In this document: one piece after another, positions 2,157-52,197 of the stretch
How positions within the stretch are numbered: position 1 is the first letter of the stretch
Layout: each line of letters starts with the position of its first letter
Program-made: the position numbers and the translations under genes
Notes under the pieces: model-generated
Seen by the model: the letters and a program-made list of their open reading frames with translations, nothing else
The model's database searches: none
What the model was told of the DNA's origin: nothing
NCBI RefSeq assembly: GCF_002895565.1
Contig: NZ_AZRN01000012.1
Span: 1-64,000, forward strand
Origin: Petrotoga mexicana DSM 14811
GTDB lineage: Bacteria > Thermotogota > Thermotogae > Petrotogales > Petrotogaceae
Length of the DNA stretch: 64,000 nt
Direction of reading: 5' to 3'

Positions 2157-2302
2157 GCAGCTTTGTGCAAAAAGCTTTATTTGTAATGCCTTAGAAACTA
2201 TTTCCAAAATCTGATTTGCGAAGCATTTTGCGGCTTTGTGCAAAAAGTTTCACTTGTAATGCTTCAAAAACTCTTTCCAAAACCTCATTTGCGATGCAAA
2301 TG
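2157..2302. repeat. Tandem duplication, two units of 73 bp, inside the Rpn pseudogene
   Basis: Unit 1 is 2157-2229 and unit 2 is 2230-2302. Both read GC(A/G)GCTTTGTGCAAAAAG and continue with GTAATGC and a CATTTGCGA-type end. The units differ by scattered substitutions, so the duplication is not very recent. They stand exactly where the intact paralogue encodes the nuclease active-site strand. Confidence 0.8.
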
Positions 2303-2748
2303 ACGTATCCTCATGGAAGAAAGCAGACTTACTAAGATTTGCACAATACGACATAGCGTTATACCAAAAAGAAAGAAGAAAGATAAACACGGTGGTAATA
2401 TACTCAGGGAAATACGAAAGTGCAGAAAATGAATTAGACATGGGTTTAAATAAATACAAAGTTTTACAAGTATTCATGATAAAGTACGATGGAATAAAAA
2501 GGTATGAAGAGATAAAAGGAAAGATAGAAAAAGAAGAAGAACTAACGGATAAAGACTTAATGGATTTAGTATTCTTACCCTTGATGAAAAACGAAAAAAG
2601 CGAAGAAGAAGTGACAAAAGAAGCGTTAGAGTTAGCAATCACTATACCGGATGAAGACAAAAAAGAAGCAGTAATAGGATCGTTATTAGGGTTCTCTGAT
2701 AATTATGTAAGGGAAGAGTACATAAACAAACTGAAAGAGGTGATACGA

Positions 2749-2982
2749 ATGACAAAGATAGGAGCCTCATTATTTGAAGAAGGTGTAGAAAAAGGTGAAA
2801 GAAAAGGCAAAATTGAAGAAAGAAAAGAATTAATAATTGAGATTCTGAACCAAAGGTTTGCAAAAGATTTTGATAAGAGATTAGAAGAAAAGATCAGAAA
2901 AGCAAATGAAGAAACCATAAACCAAATAAAGAAGAACATTCTAAATATTACACTAGAAGAACTAAAAGAGTTACTTAAATAA
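2749..2982 (+). CDS. Predicted intragenic short Rpn C-terminal protein (within a pseudogene)
   Basis: 77 aa, starting MTKIGASLFEEGVEKGER and ending EELKELLK. The ATG is preceded by GAAAGAGGTG at good ribosome-site spacing, in frame with the parent gene. The product is a charged coiled coil followed by the DUF4351-like tail (LNQRF..., ITLEELKELL). In E. coli, Rpn genes are reported to make such short C-terminal proteins, which block the full-length toxin. Here the nuclease part is destroyed while this frame is intact. Expression is inferred only from the ribosome site. Confidence 0.45.
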   Translation: MTKIGASLFEEGVEKGERKGKIEERKELIIEILNQRFAKDFDKRLEEKIRKANEETINQIKKNILNITLEELKELLK

Positions 2983-3384: not shown

Positions 3385-4368
3385 ATGAATGAATTAGTGC
3401 ACAATCCTCATGATCTATTCTTCAAACGAATTTTCAGTGACATAAGGATAGCTCGAGATTTCTTATGGAACTATCTCCCTCAAGAAGCTGTAGAAATAGT
3501 ATACCTAGATTATTTAATTCCTGAAAACAACAGTCATGTTGATGAAAACCTAAGAGAAAGCCTCTCGGATATGTTGTATAAAACAAAGATAAAAGGACAA
3601 GATGGCTATATATACATTCTGATGGAACACAAAAGCTACATTGAAGGGAAAGTAATCTTTCAACTGTTGAGATACATTACGAGCATATGGGAAGAAAAAT
3701 ACGATCCCAAAACAAAAAAGGTACCAATAATAATACCAATAGTAATATACCATGGGAGAGAAATCTGGAACGTAGAAACGAACTTATCAAATATGGTGCA
3801 AGGGATAGAAGATTTATCAAATGAACTAAAAACATACTTACCTACATACCGATATGAAATATGTGATTTCTCGATCAAAGGAAAAAAAAGGATAATAGGA
3901 TTAACAGCGATGAAAGTTGCAATAGAAGCAATGAGAGCAGGAACGGCAATGACCAAAGAAGAATTTAAAGAAAGATTAAGAAGGGTATTTGAATACATAA
4001 AACAACTACCAGAAGAAGAGGTACATGAATGGTTTGAAGAGTGTATGGTCTATTTACTAAACGTAAGGGAAGATGTAACGATAGAGGAGATATTAAAAGT
4101 ACAAAAAGAAATAATGCCTGGAAGGGGTGAAATAGTTATGACGATAGCTGAAAAGTTGAGAAACGAAGGTAAATTAGAAGGTGAAAGAGAAGGGAAACTT
4201 GAAGACAGAAGGGAAGTAGCTATAAAGTTATTAAATAAACGATTTGGAAAAGAATTTACACAAGAGATGAAAGAGAAGATAAAAGAAGCTGAAGAAAGAA
4301 GAATAAACCAAATAATTGACAACATATTTGAAATAACCATAGAAGAACTAAAAGAGTTATTGAAATAA
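3385..4368 (+). CDS. Rpn family recombination-promoting nuclease/putative transposase (YhgA-like)
   Basis: 327 aa, intact. The N-terminal PD-(D/E)XK domain shows HDLFFKRIF, the acidic residue in LSDMLYKTK (about residue 57) and the E-x-K motif ILMEHKS (about residue 76), followed by PIVIYHG and the long helical region. The C-terminal 75 residues are a lysine/glutamate coiled coil plus a DUF4351-like tail (LNKRFGKEF, IEELKELLK). Proteins of this family are Mg-dependent DNA nucleases that raise RecA-independent recombination in E. coli, and some behave as anti-phage toxins. It stands alone between repeat blocks with its own promoter. An internal ribosome site with ATG at 4138 would yield only the C-terminal part. 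Confidence 0.85.
   Translation: MNELVHNPHDLFFKRIFSDIRIARDFLWNYLPQEAVEIVYLDYLIPENNSHVDENLRESLSDMLYKTKIKGQDGYIYILMEHKSYIEGKVIFQLLRYITSIWEEKYDPKTKKVPIIIPIVIYHGREIWNVETNLSNMVQGIEDLSNELKTYLPTYRYEICDFSIKGKKRIIGLTAMKVAIEAMRAGTAMTKEEFKERLRRVFEYIKQLPEEEVHEWFEECMVYLLNVREDVTIEEILKVQKEIMPGRGEIVMTIAEKLRNEGKLEGEREGKLEDRREVAIKLLNKRFGKEFTQEMKEKIKEAEERRINQIIDNIFEITIEELKELLK
4138..4368 (+). CDS. Predicted intragenic short Rpn C-terminal protein
   Basis: 76 aa, in frame within the 3385-4368 gene, beginning MTIAEKLRNEGKLEGEREGK. GAAGGGGTG lies 8-9 bases before the ATG. The same ribosome site and start are kept in the deletion derivative at 5149, although the two loci differ elsewhere. By analogy with the E. coli Rpn short forms it may be an antitoxin for the full-length protein. 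The start is inferred. Confidence 0.45.
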   Translation: MTIAEKLRNEGKLEGEREGKLEDRREVAIKLLNKRFGKEFTQEMKEKIKEAEERRINQIIDNIFEITIEELKELLK

Positions 4369-4576: not shown

Positions 4577-4906
4577 ATGCTTACAGTTCTCAGAGCCTAC
4601 AAATTAGGCAAAGATTCTGGCTTAATTCTATACCACGATACAAAAGAAAAACTCTACTATACTTACCTATACTCCATGGGTTTAATGTTATATGGAGACT
4701 CCATAAAACAATCTCTTGATGAAACCAAGCAAGTTTTAAGCGAATACCAGGAATTTATAGAAAAAGGCAAGTTAAACCCTGCAACTCTATTAAAAAAAGA
4801 AAAATTAACTAAAACTATTCAATTATATTGGGGCTTATTAAAAGCAAAAATTTTTTCACATTTTAACAGTAAAAAGAATTCTTCCCATTTTTTATTACAC
4901 CATTAA
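4577..4906 (+). CDS. Hypothetical protein, degraded copy of the 35603-35965 family
   Basis: 109 aa of unknown function. The first 95 residues (AYKLGKDSGLILYHDTKEK..., EYQEFIEKGKLNP) are nearly identical to the 120-aa protein encoded at 35603-35965, including the AAGAAGGGGG ribosome site. After IFSHFNSKK the two diverge and this copy ends early (NSSHFLLHH), so its tail is probably frameshifted or recombined. No known domain, signal peptide or membrane segment is visible; predicted mostly helical and soluble. Confidence 0.6.
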   Translation: MLTVLRAYKLGKDSGLILYHDTKEKLYYTYLYSMGLMLYGDSIKQSLDETKQVLSEYQEFIEKGKLNPATLLKKEKLTKTIQLYWGLLKAKIFSHFNSKKNSSHFLLHH

Positions 4907-5046: not shown

Positions 5047-5388
5047 AGTTGTACAAAACAAAGATAAAAGAACAAGATGGCTACATATACATTCTGATGG
5101 AACACAAAAGCTACATTGAAGGGAAAGTATGGAAGGGGTGAAATAGTGATGACAATAGCTGAAAAGTTGAGAAACGAAGGTAAATTAGAAGGAGAAAGAG
5201 AGGGGAAACTTGAAGAAAGAAAAAGATTTATAGAATTTATTATAAAAAACTTAAGCAAGAGATTCGGCAACCAACTAACTGAAGAAATAAAAGATAAGAT
5301 AAGAAAAGCAGATGAAAAGACGATAGATTACATAGGAGACAACTTGTTAGAAATAACTATAGAGGACCTAAAAGAGTTATTGAAATAA
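5047..5388 (+). pseudogene. Internal-deletion remnant of an Rpn nuclease gene
   Basis: The left part (to about 5128) matches codons around the E-x-K motif of the 3385 gene (IYILMEHKSYIEGK). It is joined directly to sequence matching 4119 onward, removing about 470 bp, and the upstream N-terminal half is absent. The junction is out of frame and a TGA follows, so no nuclease can be made. The ribosome site GGAAGGGGTG and ATG at 5149 survive, and the frame from there to 5388 is open. Confidence 0.8.
5149..5388 (+). CDS. Stand-alone Rpn C-terminal protein (candidate orphan antitoxin)
   Basis: 79 aa, beginning MTIAEKLRNEGKLEGEREGK and ending with the conserved tail NLLEITIEDLKELLK. It starts at the position equivalent to the internal ATG 4138 of the intact gene and keeps its ribosome site, while the rest of the nuclease gene has been lost. 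Its tail (SKRFGNQLTEEIKDKIRKAD) is closer to the 8563 family than to the 3385 family, so the locus is a mosaic. Whether it is transcribed is unclear. Confidence 0.5.
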   Translation: MTIAEKLRNEGKLEGEREGKLEERKRFIEFIIKNLSKRFGNQLTEEIKDKIRKADEKTIDYIGDNLLEITIEDLKELLK

Positions 5389-8562: not shown

Positions 8563-9597
8563 ATGTCTAATCCAATAAAAGATTCCATATTCAAAGAATT
8601 ATTTGAAGACAGAACCGTATTCTATGACTTCCTAAAAGCCTTTCTACCAAGAGAGATAACAAAACAAATAAAAGAAACAGATTTAAAACGTGAACAAACT
8701 GAACTAATAGGCAAAGACTTCTCCGTAAAAAGATCGGACATACTATACAAGATAGAAAAAGGAAACGCCCCGAAGGGGGTTCAAGGAAACGGTCAAGATA
8801 TATACATATACTTATTGTTAGAGCATCAAAGTAAAGTTGACCAATTGATGGCATTCAGGATGTTGGCATACAAGTTAAGAATATGGGAACGATATGTGAA
8901 TAGTCACAAAAAAGAATCAGAGCAAAAAGGATTCAAACTACCAGTCATAATAGGGATGGTCTTTTACGATGGAAAAGCGAAATGGACATCACCAATGGAC
9001 GTAAAAGACAAGATAACAGAGATAAAAAACATGGAAGAATACTTAATAAAAGCAAATTATGAACTAATAAATTTAAGTAATATAAAAGAAGAAACGATAA
9101 TAAACATGAAGAAGGCACTAGGGGTAATCTTATTAACGGACAAACCAAACGTAAGGGTAAAAAATGCGGAAGAGTTGCTAAAGATTATAAATGAAGAGAT
9201 AATATCAAAGTTGCCGGAAGAAGAAAAAGAGAAATTTAATAAACACAGAAACGCATTCATAGAACTGTTCGGAAAGAGGACAGATTACAAAGAGATAGAA
9301 GAAAGGTTCGAAGAGCTAAAAGAAATGGAGGTGCCAAAAATGTTTAACACATTAGAAGAGATAGCAAAAAGAGACAGAGAAAAGGCTAAATTGGAAGGTG
9401 TAAAAGAAGGAGAAAGAAAAGGAAAAATTGAAGGTGAAAAAGAGTTTGCAATTAGAATATTAAGCAAAAGGTTCGGTAACCAACTAACTGAAGAAATAAA
9501 AGATAAGATAAGAAAAGCAGACGAAAAAACGATAGATTACATAGGAGACAACTTGTTAGAAATAACCATAGAAGAACTAAAAGAAATATTGAAATAA
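8563..9597 (+). CDS. Rpn family recombination-promoting nuclease with an 8-residue insertion
   Basis: 344 aa, about 93% alike by eye to the 332-aa protein at 45218-46216. The PD-(D/E)XK domain shows DSIFKELFEDRTVFYDFL, the acidic residue in KRSDILYKIE (about residue 61) and LLLEHQS (E-x-Q). Between these two strands this copy alone carries eight extra residues (NAPKGVQG) encoded by a 24-bp repeat unit. The C-terminal coiled coil and DUF4351-like tail follow. Ribosome site AAGGAG, ATG 8563. An internal GGAGGTG with ATG at 9340 would give the short form. The insertion lies in a loop between core strands, so activity could be affected but need not be lost. Confidence 0.85.
   Translation: MSNPIKDSIFKELFEDRTVFYDFLKAFLPREITKQIKETDLKREQTELIGKDFSVKRSDILYKIEKGNAPKGVQGNGQDIYIYLLLEHQSKVDQLMAFRMLAYKLRIWERYVNSHKKESEQKGFKLPVIIGMVFYDGKAKWTSPMDVKDKITEIKNMEEYLIKANYELINLSNIKEETIINMKKALGVILLTDKPNVRVKNAEELLKIINEEIISKLPEEEKEKFNKHRNAFIELFGKRTDYKEIEERFEELKEMEVPKMFNTLEEIAKRDREKAKLEGVKEGERKGKIEGEKEFAIRILSKRFGNQLTEEIKDKIRKADEKTIDYIGDNLLEITIEELKEILK
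8766..8789 (+). repeat. 24-bp GC-rich repeat unit inserted in frame in the Rpn gene
   Basis: Core CCCCGAAGGGG plus GTTCAAGGAAA. The paralogue at 45415-45430 reads through GGAAATGGTCAAG without it. The segment GGAAAC occurs on both sides of the unit, as a target duplication or as part of the unit. The same unit is frequent in the methyltransferase gene at 39615-43076. Confidence 0.85.
9340..9597 (+). CDS. Predicted intragenic short Rpn C-terminal protein
   Basis: 85 aa, starting MFNTLEEIAKRDREKAKLEG, in frame with the parent gene. A consensus GGAGGTG stands 6-8 bases before the ATG, stronger than many true starts in this window. The product is the coiled coil plus DUF4351-like tail. By analogy with reported E. 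coli Rpn short proteins it may neutralise the long form. Inferred. Confidence 0.5.
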   Translation: MFNTLEEIAKRDREKAKLEGVKEGERKGKIEGEKEFAIRILSKRFGNQLTEEIKDKIRKADEKTIDYIGDNLLEITIEELKEILK

Positions 9598-38955: not shown

Positions 38956-39631
38956 GAGGGGTTGTTTTTGTAAAGATCCTGAAAATTGCCCGAGTCGCGG
39001 GATTTTAGATAATAAATATATGTGTTCGATTTTTATGAATTATTTGAATGGGAGTAGAAATTACAGGGATATTTCCCCAAAGATTTATCTTGATGCATCG
39101 TTTGATAATTTTCTTGCACTGAATGAGCATTTGAAGAAGGGTTTGCTAAAATGCCGTTACTTTGTTGAGGAGAAGTTGTGGGAGAAGGGCGTTGGTTTGA
39201 TACTGTATGGAGGATACGGTACTGGGAAGAGTAGGTTAGGTTTTACTGTGTTGAAAGAGGCTGCTGTTATGGGTTGTTCTATCGGTGTTTTGGATATATT
39301 GAGGGATTTTGAGAATTTTGAGGGTGCCGATGCCGCTATTGAGAGAGCGTTTGAATCTGATTTGATTTTTATAGACGATCTTGGTGCCAAGAGTTATGAA
39401 TGGATAGGTCAGAAGATAAGAATCGTTATAGACGAGGTCAATAGAAACCAAAAAAGCGTTATAATTTCTACGAACTTGAATCCAAAAGAGCTGGTTAATT
39501 TTTTGGACGATAGAACCGTTTCAAGGTTGATAGAGATCGTTCCAAAAGAAGGTTTGATTTATTTGGGCGAAGAGGATTTTAGGGTGAAAAAGAGAGAAGA
39601 GAAGGTGGCTTATTTTGAACAGATCCGTTAA
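38939..39631 (+). CDS. DnaC/IstB-like helicase-loader ATPase
   Basis: 230 aa from ATG 38939, chosen because GGGAGG lies nine bases before it; the longer frame upstream is repeat sequence. An N-terminal cysteine cluster (CFCKDPENC) may bind zinc. AAA+ core: Walker A YGGYGTGKSRLG near residues 89-100, Walker B LIFIDDLGAKSYEW near 142, sensor region IISTNLNPKEL, and an arginine-rich box DRTVSRLIE. DnaC-type proteins load the replicative helicase; IstB-like proteins serve transposition. The neighbouring origin-like site and winged-helix gene favour replication. Notably it contains no repeat units although both neighbours do. Confidence 0.8.
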   Translation: MPNSSERGCFCKDPENCPSRGILDNKYMCSIFMNYLNGSRNYRDISPKIYLDASFDNFLALNEHLKKGLLKCRYFVEEKLWEKGVGLILYGGYGTGKSRLGFTVLKEAAVMGCSIGVLDILRDFENFEGADAAIERAFESDLIFIDDLGAKSYEWIGQKIRIVIDEVNRNQKSVIISTNLNPKELVNFLDDRTVSRLIEIVPKEGLIYLGEEDFRVKKREEKVAYFEQIR

Positions 39632-42600
39632 GAAAATGGCTTTGGAGCTTAAGAGCATCCTGCAAAAAGAGGTCATAAATGAGGAAGACAGCCTCAAGCG
39701 CCCCGAAAGGGGTTCAAGGAAAGACAGCCTCAAGCACCCCGAAAGGGGTTCAATGAAAGACAGCCTCACGGCAGGTGAGGAGAGAGTTTTGTTGGATGTT
39801 TTTTTGAGTTTTATTATTCTAAGAGTATTGCATGCAAAGGGAAACATCCTCACGGCAAATAAGGAAGACAGCCTCAAGCGCCCCGAAGGGGGTTCAAGGA
39901 AAGACAGCCTCACGGCAAATATGGAGGGAGATTTACAACTTTTGGGAAAGAGTGGTTCAGATTCGAATCTTTTAGGTGATTATCTTTCTGGTGTGCAATT
40001 TCTGAATAGAAATTTTGATTGTTGTTATTTAGTCGATGATATTAAAAGCAGAATTACTCGCCAAACAATAGAAAAAGTCAGAGATTTGTTTCAGAGTGTG
40101 AAAGATGAAGATTGGAAGAAAGAGGAGATTATTTCTTGGTCTTACGAGTATTTCAACGAAGCCAGCCTCAAGCGCCCCAAAGGGGGTTCAAGGAAAGACA
40201 GCCTCACGGCGAGTAAGGATTTAAAGGGTAAAAATGGTGTTATTTCACAGTTTTATACACCAAAATGGATAGTGGATTATTTGGCGGAAAATACGTTGGG
40301 GAAATATTACGGAAGAAACGGCCTCACGGCAAATGAGGAAGACAGCCTCACGGCAGGTGATGATAAGGGAGTGGACATTGAGGATGTTAAGGTTATAGAC
40401 CCGGCTTGTGGCTGTGGGAACTTCGTTATAGGGGTTTACGATAAGTTGAGAGAGATGTATCAAAATAGGAGTTACGATGATGCTTTGATTCCAAAACTTA
40501 TAATTACTAAGAATTTATACGGTATAGATATCGATGAGAACGCTGTTGAAATTACAAATTTGTTGTTGAGATTGAAGGCTTTAGAAGATGGAGCCTATGA
40601 GAAGTTTGAAACAAACATAGTAGCTGTTCCCAAAGAGAACAGCCTCACGGCAAATGAAGAAGGGCAGAATGAGTATTTGAAGAAGTTTGAAAAGATTGGA
40701 AGCTTGATGAGAACAGAGGATGTTTTAAGTTTAAAGGAGTCAGGTATAAACGATGAACGATTGAAGAAAGCTTTAGATATTCTTTCTTTGAAATACGATA
40801 TTGTTTTAACCAACCCTCCTTATTTAGATTCCTCTGATTATGATTTTGAATTGAAGAGATACATAAACGAGGATTATAGTGAGTTTAAAAAAAATCTGTA
40901 CGCCTGCTTTATTAAAAAGAGTTGCGAATTAGTGAAGATGGATGGATTTGTTGGTATGATAACTCCTCAAACCTTTATGTTTATTGGGAGTTATGAGAAG
41001 ACAAGAAGGTTCATATTAGATAACTTTCAGATAGAGAGATTGGTTCATTTTGGCCTTGGAGGGGTGTTTGATAACGCTTTAGTGGACACAGCAATGTTTG
41101 TTTTGAGAAGAAGTGAAGACAGCCTCACGGCACATAAGGAAAACAGCCTCAAGCGCCCCGAAGGGGGTTCAAGGAAAGACAGCCTCACGGCAAGTGAGGA
41201 GGGGAGTTTGGGTGAATACATAAACCTTACCTCTTTTAACGGGAAAGATTCTAAGAAACGTGCTTTATTTTCTATTTGGGAAGCCAGCCTCAAGCGCCCC
41301 GAAGGGGGTTCAAGGAAAGACAGCCTCACGGCAAGTGAGGAAAAGAAGAGAGAGAATTATCTTTCTAAGTATGTTTTTAGGGTTGATAAGAACGTTTTTA
41401 CAAAGGTTCCGAGGTTTCCTTTCATTTATTGGGTGGATTCAGACGTTGTACGTACCTTTGAAAACGAGCCGTTAGAAAAGTTCGCTGATGCACGGCAGGG
41501 GATAGCTACTGGGGATAACAAAAGGTTTTTGAGGTACTTTTGGGAAGTTAGAAGAGAGGATATTAAAGATGGAAAGAAATGGGTCCCTTACTCCAAAGGT
41601 GGACCTTACAATAAATGGTATGGTAATTTGTGGTGGGTTATAGCCTTCGATGAAGAGAATTATAATCTATTGTCAAAAATGGGGAATTATCTTCCAAATA
41701 GAAAGTATTATTTCAAAAAGGGTATAACTTACACGATGACAACCTCGAAAGGGGCGACATTTAGATACCTTCCTTCAGGATTTTTGTTTGATTGTAAGGG
41801 TAGTAGTTTGTTCTTTTCAAAAGACGAAGATATTTTTCGGTTTTTAGGTTTACTCAACAGTAGTTTGTTTTCTTACTTGGAGAGTTTTATTGCAGGAAGC
41901 GTGGATTTGGAGGTTGGGGATTTGAAAAAACTTCCCGTTCCACAAGGTTTGTTTGAGGGTTCTTCTAAGACTCAGGCGTTAGAAGCGCTTGTAAGATTGA
42001 ACGTGGCGATTAAAAAGCAGAATACCGAGATATATCCAAACGAACTGCACTTCAACGAGGAGAGTATCGATGGTGTTTCTAAGTTTTATGGTTTCATAGA
42101 GAGTAAAAACGCTCTTGATACCTATCTGCTTCTTTCTGAAGGTTTGATAGATGTACTCATAATGAAGTTGTACAGTTTGAAAGAAAGAAATTTTGAGGAG
42201 ATTTATAAAACAGTGGGGATTCCTACGGCTTTTTTACCTTTTTCTAACGGTAAAGGTGTAAAGGGTTTGCCCCCATTGAAAGAACTGTTGAAAAACCAGT
42301 ATCTTTATGAATTTGGTTTGAATCAAGCTGAACTTACCAAAATAGAAAAGCTTATTGAAGAGGCTTATAATAATAAAATCAGGTCTTTAATTTCCATTAT
42401 GCCTTTTGATGAAGGTGTAACCAACTATCATCGAAGAGAGCCATACGATAACTATGTGGAAAGAAAAGCAGAAGAAAGTTTTCAAAATCCTATTTCCGTC
42501 TACAACAGTATGAGTAACCAAGATCAGATTTTAGCAAAATTAGCTTTTGTAAGAATAGATAACGAGATCCAAAGGTACCTTTTGAATGCGGATACGGGTT

Positions 42601-43076
42601 TTATCCCCTTTGGATTTTCAATCGATGAAGAAAATAAACTGTTATCCTCAATATTCGAAGAAAACAGCCTCACGGCAAATAAGGAGCGTTCTGAATTAGA
42701 GAGTATTGTGAAGAAAGATTTGAGGGGTTATGTCTTTAAAGATTACCTAAAACTTCATGAGAAGTTTTATAAAGATAGGCCTATTGTTTGGAAGTTTGGA
42801 AAGAGAGATTGTGGTTTTTTAGTTCATTATCATAATTTGAACGAAAAAACGAAGATCAATATCTTGAACTTTTTGAGAAATAGGATCAAAGAAACGGCCT
42901 CACGGCAAATAAGGAAGGCAGCCTCAAGCGCCCCGAAGGGGGTTCAAGGACAGACAGCCTCACGGCAAACGAGGAATGAAAAGGAAAGTTTCAGAGAATT
43001 GATAAAGATAATAGAGTCGAAGAATTTTGAATTGAACATAGATGATGGGGTTTTGAGAAATAGAGAGCTTTTTTAG
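39615..43076 (+). CDS. Orphan N6-adenine DNA methyltransferase (PglX/type IIG-like) with nine repeat insertions
   Basis: 1153 aa. Motif I VIDPACGCGNF near residue 258, motif IV NPPY at 400-403, then FIKKSCELVKMDGFVGMITPQTFMF and a C-terminal target-recognition region with KKLPVPQ. Size and order resemble BREX PglX or Eco57I-type enzymes. Nine separate sites carry translated repeat units such as DSLKRPEGGSRKDSLTA, all in frame, adding about 200 residues; all avoid the catalytic motifs. The last site is read in a second phase (TASRQ, SAPKGVQ). TTG 39615 has AAGGTGG before it; ATG 39636 is the alternative. No nuclease, PglZ or Brx gene is present, so it is an orphan or solitary modification enzyme. 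Confidence 0.8.
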   Translation: MNRSVKKMALELKSILQKEVINEEDSLKRPERGSRKDSLKHPERGSMKDSLTAGEERVLLDVFLSFIILRVLHAKGNILTANKEDSLKRPEGGSRKDSLTANMEGDLQLLGKSGSDSNLLGDYLSGVQFLNRNFDCCYLVDDIKSRITRQTIEKVRDLFQSVKDEDWKKEEIISWSYEYFNEASLKRPKGGSRKDSLTASKDLKGKNGVISQFYTPKWIVDYLAENTLGKYYGRNGLTANEEDSLTAGDDKGVDIEDVKVIDPACGCGNFVIGVYDKLREMYQNRSYDDALIPKLIITKNLYGIDIDENAVEITNLLLRLKALEDGAYEKFETNIVAVPKENSLTANEEGQNEYLKKFEKIGSLMRTEDVLSLKESGINDERLKKALDILSLKYDIVLTNPPYLDSSDYDFELKRYINEDYSEFKKNLYACFIKKSCELVKMDGFVGMITPQTFMFIGSYEKTRRFILDNFQIERLVHFGLGGVFDNALVDTAMFVLRRSEDSLTAHKENSLKRPEGGSRKDSLTASEEGSLGEYINLTSFNGKDSKKRALFSIWEASLKRPEGGSRKDSLTASEEKKRENYLSKYVFRVDKNVFTKVPRFPFIYWVDSDVVRTFENEPLEKFADARQGIATGDNKRFLRYFWEVRREDIKDGKKWVPYSKGGPYNKWYGNLWWVIAFDEENYNLLSKMGNYLPNRKYYFKKGITYTMTTSKGATFRYLPSGFLFDCKGSSLFFSKDEDIFRFLGLLNSSLFSYLESFIAGSVDLEVGDLKKLPVPQGLFEGSSKTQALEALVRLNVAIKKQNTEIYPNELHFNEESIDGVSKFYGFIESKNALDTYLLLSEGLIDVLIMKLYSLKERNFEEIYKTVGIPTAFLPFSNGKGVKGLPPLKELLKNQYLYEFGLNQAELTKIEKLIEEAYNNKIRSLISIMPFDEGVTNYHRREPYDNYVERKAEESFQNPISVYNSMSNQDQILAKLAFVRIDNEIQRYLLNADTGFIPFGFSIDEENKLLSSIFEENSLTANKERSELESIVKKDLRGYVFKDYLKLHEKFYKDRPIVWKFGKRDCGFLVHYHNLNEKTKINILNFLRNRIKETASRQIRKAASSAPKGVQGQTASRQTRNEKESFRELIKIIESKNFELNIDDGVLRNRELF
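39680..39925 (+). repeat. Two repeat clusters at the methyltransferase N-terminus
   Basis: 39680-39778: two 36-bp units (SLKRPERGSRKD, SLKHPERGSMKD) and one 24-bp unit (SLTAGEE). 39842-39925: 24-, 36- and 24-bp units. The 36-bp unit has the hairpin CCCCGAAAGGGG. Confidence 0.85.
40163..40360 (+). repeat. Repeat clusters flanking the SAM-binding region
   Basis: 40163-40215: one 36-bp and one 24-bp unit. 40318-40360: two 24-bp units. They bracket the conserved IVDYLAENTLGKYYG segment. A single 24-bp unit follows at 40638-40662 (ENSLTANEEG). Confidence 0.85.
41116..41345 (+). repeat. Repeat clusters after the catalytic domain
   Basis: 41116-41200: 24-, 36- and 24-bp units. 41284-41345: 36- and 24-bp units. 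Both read SLKRPEGGSRKDSLTASEE. The near identity of the two clusters indicates recent copying. Confidence 0.85.
42660..42985 (+). repeat. Repeat units near the methyltransferase C-terminus
   Basis: 42663-42686: one 24-bp unit (NSLTANKE). 42893-42980: 24-, 36- and 24-bp units read in the second phase (TASRQIRKA, SAPKGVQG, TASRQTRNE). Both phases of the repeat are open. Confidence 0.85.
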
Positions 43077-45217: not shown

Positions 45218-46216
45218 ATGTCTAATCCAATAAAAGATTCCATATTCAAAGAATTATTTGAAGACAGAACCGTATTCTATGACTTTCTAAAAGCCTTTCT
45301 ACCAAAAGAGATCACAAAACAAATAAAAGAAACAGATTTAAAACGTGAACAAACTGAACTAATAGGCAAAGACTTCTCCATAAAAAGATCGGACATACTA
45401 TACAAAATAGAAAAAGGAAATGGTCAAGATGTATACATATACCTATTGTTAGAACATCAAAGTAAAGTTGACCAACTGATGGCATTCAGGATGTTGGCAT
45501 ATAAGGTAAGGATATGGGAACGATATGTAAAAAGTCACAAAAAAGAATCAGAACAAAAAGGATTCAAACTACCAGTCATAATAGGGATAGTCTTTTACGA
45601 TGGAAAAGCGAAATGGACATCACCAATGGACGTAAAAGACAAGATAACAAAGATAAAAAACATGGAAGAGTATTTAATAAAAGCTGACTATGAACTAATA
45701 AATTTAAGCAATATAAAAGAAGAAACAATAATAAACATGAAGAACGCACTAGGGGTAATCTTATTAACGGACAAACCAAACGTAAAGATAAAAAAAATGG
45801 AAGAGTTGCTAAAGATTATAAATGAAGAGATAATATCGAAGTTGCCGAAAGAAGAACAAGAGAAGTTTGATAAACACAGAAACGCATTCATAGAACTGTT
45901 CGGAAAGAGGACAGATTACAAAGAGATAGAAGAAAGGTACGAAGAGCTAAAAGAAATGGAGGTGCCAAAAATGTTTAACACATTAGAAGAGATAGCAAAA
46001 AGGGAAAGAGAAAAAGCTAAATTGGAAGGTAAAGTAGAAGGAAAACTTGAAGGTGAAAAAGAATTAATCATAGAAATCCTAAACCAAAGGTTTGGAAAAG
46101 ATTTAGATAAAAAATTAGAAGAAAAGATCAGAAATGCAAATGAAGAAACTATAAACCAAATAAAGAAAAATATTCTTAGTATAACACTAGAAGAACTAAA
46201 AGAAATATTGAAGTAG
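45218..46216 (+). CDS. Rpn family recombination-promoting nuclease
   Basis: 332 aa, the uninterrupted paralogue of the 8563 gene. PD-(D/E)XK core with KRSDILYKIEKGNGQDVYIYL and LLLEHQS, PVIIGIVFYDG, then helices, and a coiled-coil tail whose DUF4351-like part (LNQRFGKDLDKKLEEKI) is closer to the 2392-2982 copy than to 8563, which indicates exchange of C-terminal segments. Ribosome site AAGGAG. Internal GGAGGTG with ATG 45971. Intact; likely functional. Confidence 0.85.
   Translation: MSNPIKDSIFKELFEDRTVFYDFLKAFLPKEITKQIKETDLKREQTELIGKDFSIKRSDILYKIEKGNGQDVYIYLLLEHQSKVDQLMAFRMLAYKVRIWERYVKSHKKESEQKGFKLPVIIGIVFYDGKAKWTSPMDVKDKITKIKNMEEYLIKADYELINLSNIKEETIINMKNALGVILLTDKPNVKIKKMEELLKIINEEIISKLPKEEQEKFDKHRNAFIELFGKRTDYKEIEERYEELKEMEVPKMFNTLEEIAKREREKAKLEGKVEGKLEGEKELIIEILNQRFGKDLDKKLEEKIRNANEETINQIKKNILSITLEELKEILK
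45971..46216 (+). CDS. Predicted intragenic short Rpn C-terminal protein
   Basis: 81 aa, starting MFNTLEEIAKREREKAKLEG, with GGAGGTG eight bases upstream, in frame. Same arrangement as 9340. Inferred from the conserved ribosome site only. Confidence 0.5.
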   Translation: MFNTLEEIAKREREKAKLEGKVEGKLEGEKELIIEILNQRFGKDLDKKLEEKIRNANEETINQIKKNILSITLEELKEILK

Positions 46217-47015: not shown

Positions 47016-47414
47016 ATGGGAGAAAGAGAAGAAGACTTGCAAGAATTATCCTCAAAACAGCTAAAAAAGGAAATAATAAAAGCTCTTGAAAATCAACCCT
47101 TCCCAATCTTCAAACGTTCATTGAAAAAAATAAACAATAGGAACCTTCTATTAAAAATCTTGCAATCAGTCTTGGAAATAAATTATGATTACACAATAGG
47201 TGAAATGAAAACAGGAAACTTAAGAGGAATCAGGACGTACAAATTCATACATGATAGAGTATATTACCGGTTATCGTATTGGGTAGAAAATGATGGTAAA
47301 ATAATAATAACTTATATAGATATAATGAAAAGGGAAGATAGTTATGACAATTTAATAAAATACTTTCAATCAGAAAAATCAGTGCTAAAAAAAATAAATG
47401 AAAAAGGGGTATAA
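47016..47414 (+). CDS. RelE/ParE-fold toxin-like protein (HigB-like)
   Basis: 132 aa. After a helical N-terminal part (LKKEIIKALENQPFPIFKRSL) the second half has the RelE/ParE outline: helices, then TGNLRGIRTYKFIH, VYYRLSYWVEND, KIIITYIDIMKREDSYDNL, i.e. the strand-R-strand-YRL-strand-x-R pattern. Such toxins cleave mRNA on the ribosome or poison gyrase. It is followed 12 bp later by a helix-turn-helix gene and then a SecB-like gene, as in HigBA-SecB modules of mycobacteria. Assignment is by pattern; the N-terminal extension is unusually long. Confidence 0.6.
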   Translation: MGEREEDLQELSSKQLKKEIIKALENQPFPIFKRSLKKINNRNLLLKILQSVLEINYDYTIGEMKTGNLRGIRTYKFIHDRVYYRLSYWVENDGKIIITYIDIMKREDSYDNLIKYFQSEKSVLKKINEKGV

Positions 47415-48701: not shown

Positions 48702-48911
48702 ATGACAAAGATCGGAACTTCATTATTTGAAGAAGGCGTTGAAGAAGGAGAAAAAGAATTGACAATTAAAATATTAAACAAAAGATTCGGTAGAAAATTA
48801 ACTAAAGAGTTAAAAGCTAAGATAAGAAAAACGGATGAAAAGACGATAGATTACATAGGAGATAACTTGTTAGAGATAACTATAGAAGAACTAAAGGAGT
48901 TATTGAAATAG
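48702..48911 (+). CDS. Stand-alone Rpn C-terminal protein with its own promoter
   Basis: 69 aa, MTKIGTSLFEEGVEEGEKEL to EELKELLK. Identical in layout to the internal frame of the 50635 gene (ATG 51259) and preceded by the same GAAAGAGGTG ribosome site. Here, however, that site is fused directly to an Rpn-type promoter and leader, and the nuclease domain is missing altogether. So the short product is the only possible one. Coiled coil plus DUF4351-like tail. Candidate orphan antitoxin or decoy subunit. Confidence 0.65.
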   Translation: MTKIGTSLFEEGVEEGEKELTIKILNKRFGRKLTKELKAKIRKTDEKTIDYIGDNLLEITIEELKELLK

Positions 48912-49794: not shown

Positions 49795-49870
49795 CCGAAA
49801 GCAGGGGGAAAGGGGGGCTAATAAAAATACTTTTCCCCATATGGGTGTCCAGCAGGGGAAGGGAGCTATA
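49795..49870. repeat. GC-rich leader repeat
   Basis: GCAGGGGGAAAGGGGGGC and ATGGGTGTCCAGCAGGGGAAG with GGAGCTATAAAG; degenerate unit before the trmO fragment. Confidence 0.45.
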
Positions 49871-49913
49871 AAGTTCATTATACTTTATTTAGAAGAAATG
49901 GGGGTGCCAAGAA

Positions 49914-50173
49914 TGTTTGAGGAAGTAGGAAAGTTAGCAAAAAGTATGATGGAAATTAAATACACTCCCATTGGTTTATCGGTTGTTAGGTTAATAAAAG
50001 TAGAAAAGAATATGCCGGAAATTCAAAATGTAGAAATAATTGATGGTACCCCTGTTTTGGATATAAAACCCTACGTACCAGAATTCACCACTAATGATGG
50101 GATAAAAATAGGGTGGCTTGAAAAAAATGTTCACAAACTGCAACAATCGAAAGACGACGGTAGATTCAGTTAA
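49914..50173 (+). pseudogene. 3' fragment of trmO (TsaA-like tRNA methyltransferase) joined to an Rpn internal start
   Basis: From about 49955 the frame reads YTPIGLSVVRLIKVEKNMPE, EIIDGTPVLDIKPYVPEF, the C-terminal signature of the TrmO/TsaA (UPF0066) family, which methylates t6A37 of tRNA-Thr. The first two-thirds of a TrmO gene are missing. The codons before it, MGVPRMFEEVGKLAKSM, correspond to the Rpn segment EVPKMFNTLEEIAKR including the GGGGGTG ribosome site, so the fragment has been captured behind an Rpn internal start (ATG 49914). A product of 86 aa could be made but would lack the catalytic part. Confidence 0.75.
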
Positions 50174-50634: not shown

Positions 50635-51468
50635 ATGAAAGACACCAACAGAACGGGGAATATTCACAAAGACGAAACCGCCGAATATCATGAACTCAAC
50701 TTTCCAAAGATAATTTCAGTAAAACCAATAGACATACCAGTAATCAAGGTATCAAACCAAAACCCGGATTTTGTATTTGAACTAGAGGACAATTCACTAT
50801 TACACTTAGAATTTCAAACGACGTGGAAGAAAGCAGACTTACTAAGATTTGCACAATACGATATAGCGTTATACCAAAAAGAAAGAAGAAAGATAAATAC
50901 GGTGGTAATGTACTCAGGAAAATACGAAAGTGCAGAAAATGAATTGGACATGGGTTCTATTAAATACAAAGTACAACAAATATTCATGACAAAGTACGAT
51001 GGAATAAAAAGGTACGAAGAAATAAAAGGAAAGATAGAAAAAGAAGAAGAACTAACGGATAAAGATCTAATGGATTTAGTATTCTTGCCCTTGATGAGAA
51101 ACGAAAAAAGTGAAGAAGAAGTGACAAAAGATGTCTTTGAGTTAGCGATCAAGATACCAGATGAAAACAAAAGAGAAGCGGTAATAGGATCGTTATTAGG
51201 GTTCTCTGATAGTTATGTAAGAGATGAGTACATAAACGAACTGAAAGAGGTGATACCAATGACAAAGATCGGAACTTCATTATTTGAAGAAGGCGTTGAA
51301 GAAGGAGAAAAAGAATTGACAATTAAAATATTAAACAAAAGATTTGGTAGACGATTAACCGAAGAAATAAAAGATAGGATAAGAGAAGCAGACAAAAAGA
51401 CAATAGATTATATAGGAGATAACTTGTTAGAGATAACCATAGAAGAGCTAAAAGAGTTATTGAAATAA
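50635..51468 (+). CDS. Rpn family nuclease, third subgroup, intact
   Basis: 277 aa. Shorter N-terminus than the 3385 and 8563 types. ISVKPIDIPVIKVSNQNPDF, then FELEDNSLLHLEFQTTW (acidic residue and E-x-Q core), LLRFAQYDIALYQKE, MYSGKYES, followed by helices and the coiled coil/DUF4351-like tail. This is the complete counterpart of the pseudogene at 1985. Ribosome site GAGGGGG. Internal AGAGGTG with ATG 51259. Confidence 0.8.
   Translation: MKDTNRTGNIHKDETAEYHELNFPKIISVKPIDIPVIKVSNQNPDFVFELEDNSLLHLEFQTTWKKADLLRFAQYDIALYQKERRKINTVVMYSGKYESAENELDMGSIKYKVQQIFMTKYDGIKRYEEIKGKIEKEEELTDKDLMDLVFLPLMRNEKSEEEVTKDVFELAIKIPDENKREAVIGSLLGFSDSYVRDEYINELKEVIPMTKIGTSLFEEGVEEGEKELTIKILNKRFGRRLTEEIKDRIREADKKTIDYIGDNLLEITIEELKELLK
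51259..51468 (+). CDS. Predicted intragenic short Rpn C-terminal protein
   Basis: 69 aa, MTKIGTSLFEEGVEEGEKEL onward, GAAAGAGGTG seven to eight bases before ATG, in frame. Nearly identical to the free-standing gene at 48702. Confidence 0.5.
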   Translation: MTKIGTSLFEEGVEEGEKELTIKILNKRFGRRLTEEIKDRIREADKKTIDYIGDNLLEITIEELKELLK

Positions 51469-51570: not shown

Positions 51571-51609
51571 TTCATTATACTTGATTTAGAAGAAATGGGG
51601 GTGTTAAGA

Positions 51610-52197
51610 ATGGAAACATTAGAAGAAATATCAAAAAGGGAAAGAGAAGAAGCTAGATTGGAAGGTGAGAAAGAAGGAAGAATCATAGGAAGAATTGAAG
51701 GCGAAAAGATAGGTATTCAAATAGGAAAACTTCGAGAAAGAAAGGAATTTGTAATTAGAATATTAAGTAAAAGATTCAGTAACCGGTTGAACGAAGAGTT
51801 AAAAGACGAGATAAGAAAAGCGGGTGAAAAAACGATAAGCAACATAGAAAACAACTTATTAGAAATAACAATAAAAGAACTAGAAAAAATTAAGATCACA
51901 AATGTATTTGACACATTAGAAAAAATGATTAAAATGGGCAAAGAAAAGGCTAGATTAGAAGGTAAAATAGAAGGTTTTAAAAAAGGAAGAATCGAAGGCG
52001 AAGAAGAAGGCATTGAAAAAGCTAAACTTGAAGAAAGAAAAGAATGTGAAATTAGATTGCTAAGCAAACGATTCGGTAGAAGATTAACTAAAGAGTTAAA
52101 AGCTAAGATAAGAGAAGCAGATGAAAAGACGATAGATTACATAGGGGATAACTTGTTAGAGATAACCATAGAAGAACTAAAAGAAATATTGAAGTAG
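51610..52197 (+). CDS. Tail-only Rpn protein with two tandem C-terminal domains
   Basis: 195 aa from ATG 51610 (GGGGGTG before it; ATG 51595 is the alternative). It contains no nuclease domain. Instead two coiled-coil plus DUF4351-like units stand in a row: SKRFSNRLNEELKDEIRKAG...NNLLEITIKEL and SKRFGRRLTKELKAKIREAD...DNLLEITIEELKEILK, joined by VFDTLEKMIKMGKEKARLEG, which is itself equivalent to an internal start region. So this is a fused dimer of the short form. Ends 68 bp before pycB. Confidence 0.65.
   Translation: METLEEISKREREEARLEGEKEGRIIGRIEGEKIGIQIGKLRERKEFVIRILSKRFSNRLNEELKDEIRKAGEKTISNIENNLLEITIKELEKIKITNVFDTLEKMIKMGKEKARLEGKIEGFKKGRIEGEEEGIEKAKLEERKECEIRLLSKRFGRRLTKELKAKIREADEKTIDYIGDNLLEITIEELKEILK

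Follow-up and report, generated by a model that had tools for sequence, protein, structure and literature searches.

The window analysed here is the whole 64,000-nucleotide stretch (C12:1-64000) of a Thermotogota genome that comprises 2.13 Mb in 36 contigs. Within it lie full-length nuclease genes of three subfamilies (A, B and C), the short products predicted to start inside them, and copies of the C-terminal module that stand by themselves.

2259..2982, + strand: disrupted subfamily C gene in which the internal start (ATG 2749) and the module are intact
3385..4368, + strand: rpn gene, subfamily B, 327 aa (PF04754 E=4e-52; TIGR01784 over cut-off)
4138..4368, + strand: predicted RpnS-like product, 76 aa, from ATG 4138, which follows GGAAGGGGTG and pairs in alignment with Met244 of E. 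coli RpnA
5149..5388, + strand: stand-alone type B module of 79 aa; the nuclease deletion stops 19 nt short of the ATG (dN/dS 0.10)
8563..9597, + strand: rpn gene, subfamily A, RpnL-like PD-(D/E)XK nuclease, 344 aa (PF04754 E=2e-36)
9323..9342, + strand: internal ribosome site of subfamily A, GGAGGTG, with ATG 9340 (SD -13.0 kcal/mol)
9340..9597, + strand: predicted RpnS-like C-terminal product, 85 aa (weak DUF4351 match)
45218..46216, + strand: rpn gene, subfamily A, 332 aa (PF04754 E=2e-39)
45971..46216, + strand: predicted RpnS-like product, 81 aa, from ATG 45971 after GGAGGTG (SD -13.0)
48702..48911, + strand: stand-alone type C module of 69 aa, lying 1.7 kb ahead of the full-length gene at 50635 (dN/dS 0.11)
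50635..51468, + strand: Rpn-like gene, subfamily C, 277 aa (only DUF4351 over cut-off)
51259..51468, + strand: predicted RpnS-like product, 69 aa, from ATG 51259 after AAAGAGGTG (SD -12.7)
51595..52197, + strand: free-standing tandem of two modules that share a frame, immediately downstream of the 50635 gene (two DUF4351-like stretches)

Profile searches find a PF04754/COG5464-type nuclease domain at the N-terminus of the proteins encoded at 3385, 8563 and 45218, and the 3385 protein matches the RpnA model under the cut-off. The initial annotation described four intact Rpn genes with in-frame ATGs at 4138, 9340, 45971 and 51259, each behind a ribosome site, and these ATGs are present as claimed, with the ribosome-site sequences that were quoted. 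All four genes do carry the internal start, but the window holds further copies, namely the disrupted nuclease gene at 2259 and the free-standing modules at 5149, 48702 and 51595/51610, the last of which begins either at ATG 51595 or at 51610 after GGGGGTG.

The assignment of the 50635 gene to Rpn stands for its C-terminal module, which matches DUF4351 (PF14261) and passes the gathering cut-off of that family (25.4 of 25, the remaining modules scoring 15-22), but by profile the gene is not Transposase_31/PF04754. Profile searches gave no PF04754 or NCBIfam match for its N-terminal domain, and TIGR01784 matched weakly in one of its relatives only. A profile comparison of subfamily C with the Rpn set aligns over the full length, driven mostly by the C-terminal part. 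Judged by its sequence, the N-terminal domain is a divergent relative, and we term the gene Rpn-like, not Rpn.

Other elements were seen in the same region. A PglX/type IIG restriction-methylase-like gene, called from a TTG, lies at 39615-43076, a few kb from rpn copies, and a gene for a ParE-like toxin (PF15781), followed by a small ORF, adjoins the rpn cluster at 47016-47411. The leader GGGCGCTATAAA(A/G)TTCATTATACTT is repeated upstream of rpn genes and solitary modules (8394, 45106, 49861, 51558 and other places), and a GC-rich segment, GGGCGGGGAGCGGGGCGAAGGGGCGC, is repeated in intergenic regions. At 49861-50173 a type A ribosome site and ATG are joined to a TrmO-like fragment (start ATG 49913) with no RpnS module, behind the same leader as that of the 51595 gene. 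An ORF of 109 aa, of no known family, precedes the nuclease-deleted type B module in two places (4577-4906 of the window, and G000 C32 near 129150), and the pair looks duplicated as a unit.

Anatomy of the module and homology to RpnA

In the AlphaFold2 model of the 8563 protein the nuclease domain is followed by a long helix (residues 257-307), and Met260, encoded by the internal start, lies in the first turn of that helix. Modelled alone, the module that begins at 4138 forms a long helix and three short helices (pLDDT 87), which agrees in outline with the RpnS fold of a dimerising long helix and a compact bundle of helices. Foldseek searches of the PDB returned nothing significant for the full-length models and no match to 7TH0 for the module model, the method being weak for small helical proteins; sequence searches for solved relatives of the window proteins gave none that was meaningful, and only the E. 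coli module finds 7TH0. Repeats of four residues, such as KLEG/KVEG/EREG, follow the internal Met by 8-20 residues, and within each subfamily most module lengths differ by multiples of 4 aa, being mostly 72/76/80 aa in subfamily B, 73/77/81/85 aa in A and 69/77/81/85 aa in C.

The 3385 protein aligns with E. coli RpnA across the nuclease domain up to the start (VMTIAEKLRNEG vs LMTIAERLRQEG), where MTIAEKLRNEG, read from ATG 4138, aligns with MTIAERLRQEG of RpnA-S, residue 1 of 7TH0; LMTIAERLRQEG corresponds to residue 1 onward of the crystallised RpnA-S. Homology to the verified E. coli start is exact for type B (3385), and for types A and C it holds by domain position only. The RpnA start, Met244, has been proven by mutation (Zhong et al. 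2023, PMC10327210), and the number of repeats in RpnS sets pairing specificity (PMC10327210). An internal start has also been verified in the rpn gene of C. difficile, so that RpnS is made beyond Proteobacteria, and DUF4351 proteins have already been identified as separately encoded RpnS (PMC10327210).

A real internal start need not yield an antitoxin: the short protein might instead regulate transcription, or be a structural partner or subunit in the manner of Cas11d with Cas10d. RpnA-S and RpnA-L form a stable complex (PMC10327210) and solitary modules persist without an adjacent nuclease, both of which would suit such a role. We nevertheless think it unlikely, given that the homologous product blocks cleavage and toxicity in E. 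coli (PMC10327210) and that the presence of conserved solitary modules in genomes with resident toxins fits a function in immunity or as an antitoxin. Action of the short product as an antitoxin is the reading we favour.

Strength of the internal start and selection upon it

The internal ribosome sites, GGAAGGGGTGaaatagttATG (4138), aatGGAGGTGccaaaaATG (9340 and 45971) and AAAGAGGTGataccaATG (51259), match the 16S 3' end of this genome, which is the standard GGATCACCTCCTTT, with duplex energies of -13.2, -13.0 and -12.7 kcal/mol, respectively. Of 2156 internal in-frame ATGs in a further 332 genes of this genome, 4 (0.19%) have energies at or below -12.7, and the first ATGs of genes have a median SD energy of -9.5. 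At their own starts the rpn genes have weaker sites than the internal ones, -5.1 for 3385 and -8.9 for 8563, for instance. An SD and start are present at the head of the C-terminal module, and every nuclease-bearing gene listed for the genus has an SD (-9.3 to -13.2, mostly -12.7 or better) and an ATG at the homologous place. An internal promoter was sought upstream of 9340, with one weak match, no more than shuffles yield.

It could be argued that the SD-like stretch is a by-product of the Glu/Lys/Gly-rich entrance to the coil, which purine-rich codons encode and at which no initiation occurs. Purine-rich codons are common, and synonymous shuffles of single genes of the genus gave only p 0.03-0.13 (p=0.04 for 8563 with codons shuffled within the gene); in this genome, shuffling the upstream codons alone gave p = 0.03 to 0.05 per subfamily. 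Against this, when synonymous codons were shuffled within each gene and the strongest start 45-125 codons from the gene end was scored, the internal-start signal in 15 Thermotogota Rpn lineages (under 70% identity) beat the shuffles with a combined p = 2.8e-8, and the control region just upstream is null (p = 0.998). The rarer GAG, GTG and AGG codons are retained at the site, SD and ATG are kept in solitary copies whose upstream frame is shifted (L113, L106:4785, L128 and L100:4097), and in plasmid relatives of the 50635 gene the start codon follows the residue, ATG for Met and GTG for Val. We therefore rejected a codon by-product, which we consider very improbable.

These plasmid relatives of the 50635 gene, about 26-36% identical to it and mostly from Bacillota, have their strongest internal start at the homologous column in 9/9 cases (p=1e-7, the relatives not being independent and including four close Paraclostridium ones). 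For nearly all of the 15 lineages the best site coincides with the head of the coiled coil, amid quite different flanking peptides (GRGEIV|MTIAEKL, EVPK|MFNTLEE, KEVIP|MTKIG, EEVEE|MFENF and KRGDLI|MTRGR around the start). As the initial annotation held, the three subgroups have the SD and start in common despite their different N-terminal halves, and when we examined whether the site is lost in most orthologues we found it kept. Sites are weaker (-8 to -11) in G026, from another family of the phylum, and with the same detector no internal site stands out in L174 (G056). We note that G026 is a 2.9 Mb genome with 27 PF04754 matches, many of them at contig ends.

The detector recovers the known Met244 start of E. 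coli RpnA, and in RpnC and RpnE it chooses the position expected. In this shuffle test the E. coli sites themselves do not reach significance (p 0.07-0.33), and the signal is therefore no measure of translation. Synonymous conservation inside single subfamilies has little power within the genus because the genes are close, 30-76% of codons being invariant anyway. The comparisons as a whole argue for selection on the ribosome site over and above what the protein requires, both across Thermotogota and, in the 50635 type, among plasmid relatives mostly from Bacillota.

Modules without a nuclease

A survey of six genomes of the genus and one of the sister genus yielded about 24 C-terminal modules that lack a nuclease, in about ten classes of 5' junction, homology to the full genes ending at -18/19, -23/25, -24/27, -26, -33, -44, -54, -60, -73 or -90 from the ATG. 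None of these junctions removes the SD, and the ribosome site is kept in all of the roughly 24 modules. At one syntenic locus, 98% identical across 4.5 kb, the full gene is present in G001, whereas another species, G002, retains no more of it than the module and 73 nt. The internal ATG is present in 18/18 modules with an intact frame; it has been lost from three (L121, L142 and L141), all broken, and kept in three others that are broken (L104, L134 and L120:4147), an association with intactness of p about 0.01 by Fisher's test on hand-counted copies, some of them not independent. Tail remnants that lack a start occur as well; they are shorter, about 35 aa at most, several with stops. We also observed a type B rpn gene, L138 (G000 C33:79344-80309), in which the nuclease and internal start are intact and the module is broken by an early stop; it may be a pseudogene or else a toxin that lacks an antitoxin of its own.

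Between solitary modules and the nearest full-length modules the mean dN is 0.071, the mean dS 0.425 and the mean dN/dS 0.17. The solitary modules thus behave as constrained proteins and evolve under purifying selection, recent gene conversion being disfavoured as the cause because of the dS values. Tandem-fused modules occur in two species, at 51595-52197 of the window and at L106 (G002), and G002 has a second such ORF. Only the first module of such a frame has a ribosome site; the second module of the window tandem, which has no start of its own either, was not counted as support. Such a tandem could possibly be a single-chain antitoxin dimer. A search for the module in a genome-contig collection returned 2 loci only, both from a Thermotogota MAG and of little use.

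Finally, the conserved stretch might serve recombination where the two domains meet, swapping modules and creating truncations, and resemble a ribosome site only secondarily. This notion can draw on the exchange of modules implied by their C-terminal tails (each of the three nuclease types is found with T1 and T2, and two of the types with T3), on the many junctions close upstream of the SD and on the joining of the site to the TrmO-like frame at 49913. As the sole explanation it was rejected and has in our judgement next to no probability, since the 3' identity common to nuclease types ends inside the module, downstream of the start and not at the SD, the junctions vary from -18 to -90, and the subfamilies and other genera have only the SD and start in common, with no shared sequence.

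A proposed toxin and intragenic antitoxin

The toxin/intragenic-antitoxin design proposed in the initial annotation is supported by positional homology of one site to the RpnA start, by selection on the site, by the RpnS-like anatomy and by constrained solitary modules that start at the same ATG. From these we infer, with a probability of roughly 80%, that the genes encode an RpnL toxin and an intragenic RpnS antitoxin, and that they are accompanied by many solitary antitoxin genes, some of them tandem-fused. Homology to the E. coli system suggests that translation yields both products, that these bind each other, with RpnS neutralising RpnL, and that phage may have a role. Initiation at the gene's own start would give RpnL, in which a long helix connects a PD-(D/E)XK nuclease to a C-terminal domain that is small and helical. 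RpnS, consisting of the C-terminal domain alone (about 70-85 aa), would arise from initiation at the internal ribosome site, with its ATG at the first turn of the helix. RpnS would pair through its helix, which varies in length by 4-residue steps, with the same domain of RpnL, keeping the nuclease inactive, and an upset of the balance, for example by phage infection, would free RpnL. Many copies would have lost the nuclease and persisted as solitary RpnS genes.

More speculatively, and at less than even odds, the genus might keep a pool of solitary RpnS genes, pseudo-dimeric tandems included, generated by repeated deletion of the nuclease with retention of the internal ribosome site. Such a pool might confer immunity, or act against addiction, towards Rpn toxins of neighbours and mobile elements, its specificities being reshuffled by swaps of tails and of 4-residue repeats.

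The comparative evidence is strong, and suggests that a gene-within-gene antitoxin is a conserved, selected trait of Rpn systems across phyla, including a type outside PF04754. It also suggests a route by which such a system may break up, in which loss of the toxin half leaves the internal gene to stand as a separate one, already equipped with start signals. The internal product is missed by gene finders.

Earlier work (PMC10327210) has described the design itself, its occurrence beyond Proteobacteria (in C. difficile) and RpnS/DUF4351 genes that stand by themselves; among the papers searched, none dealt with an intragenic Rpn antitoxin in Thermotogota. What is new here is the quantitative conservation of the start in Thermotogota, its presence in a nuclease type outside PF04754, its repeated retention in nuclease-less derivatives and the tandem-fused modules.

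Among known systems, E. coli RpnA-RpnE L/S (PMC10327210, 7TH0) shares its nuclease family with types A and B. Its SD and start occupy the homologous position (exactly so for type B), its C-terminal module is small and helical with 4-residue repeats just after the start, and it has free-standing RpnS genes adjoining or away from the full gene. The system described here differs in its thermophilic Thermotogota host, in modules of 69-85 aa as against 49-60, in the DUF4351-like tail, the stronger SD, the many more solitary modules and the tandem two-module proteins, and in the 50635 nuclease type, which lies outside PF04754. C. difficile rpn (PMC10327210) likewise has an internal RBS and start that make RpnS outside Proteobacteria, although in a different phylum. 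The solitary modules belong by sequence with DUF4351 (PF14261) proteins, although single modules here mostly score just below the gathering cut-off. In Cas10d/Cas11d, too, an in-frame internal start yields the C-terminal domain; Cas11d, however, is a subunit of one complex and not an antitoxin, and we claim no sequence relation to it.
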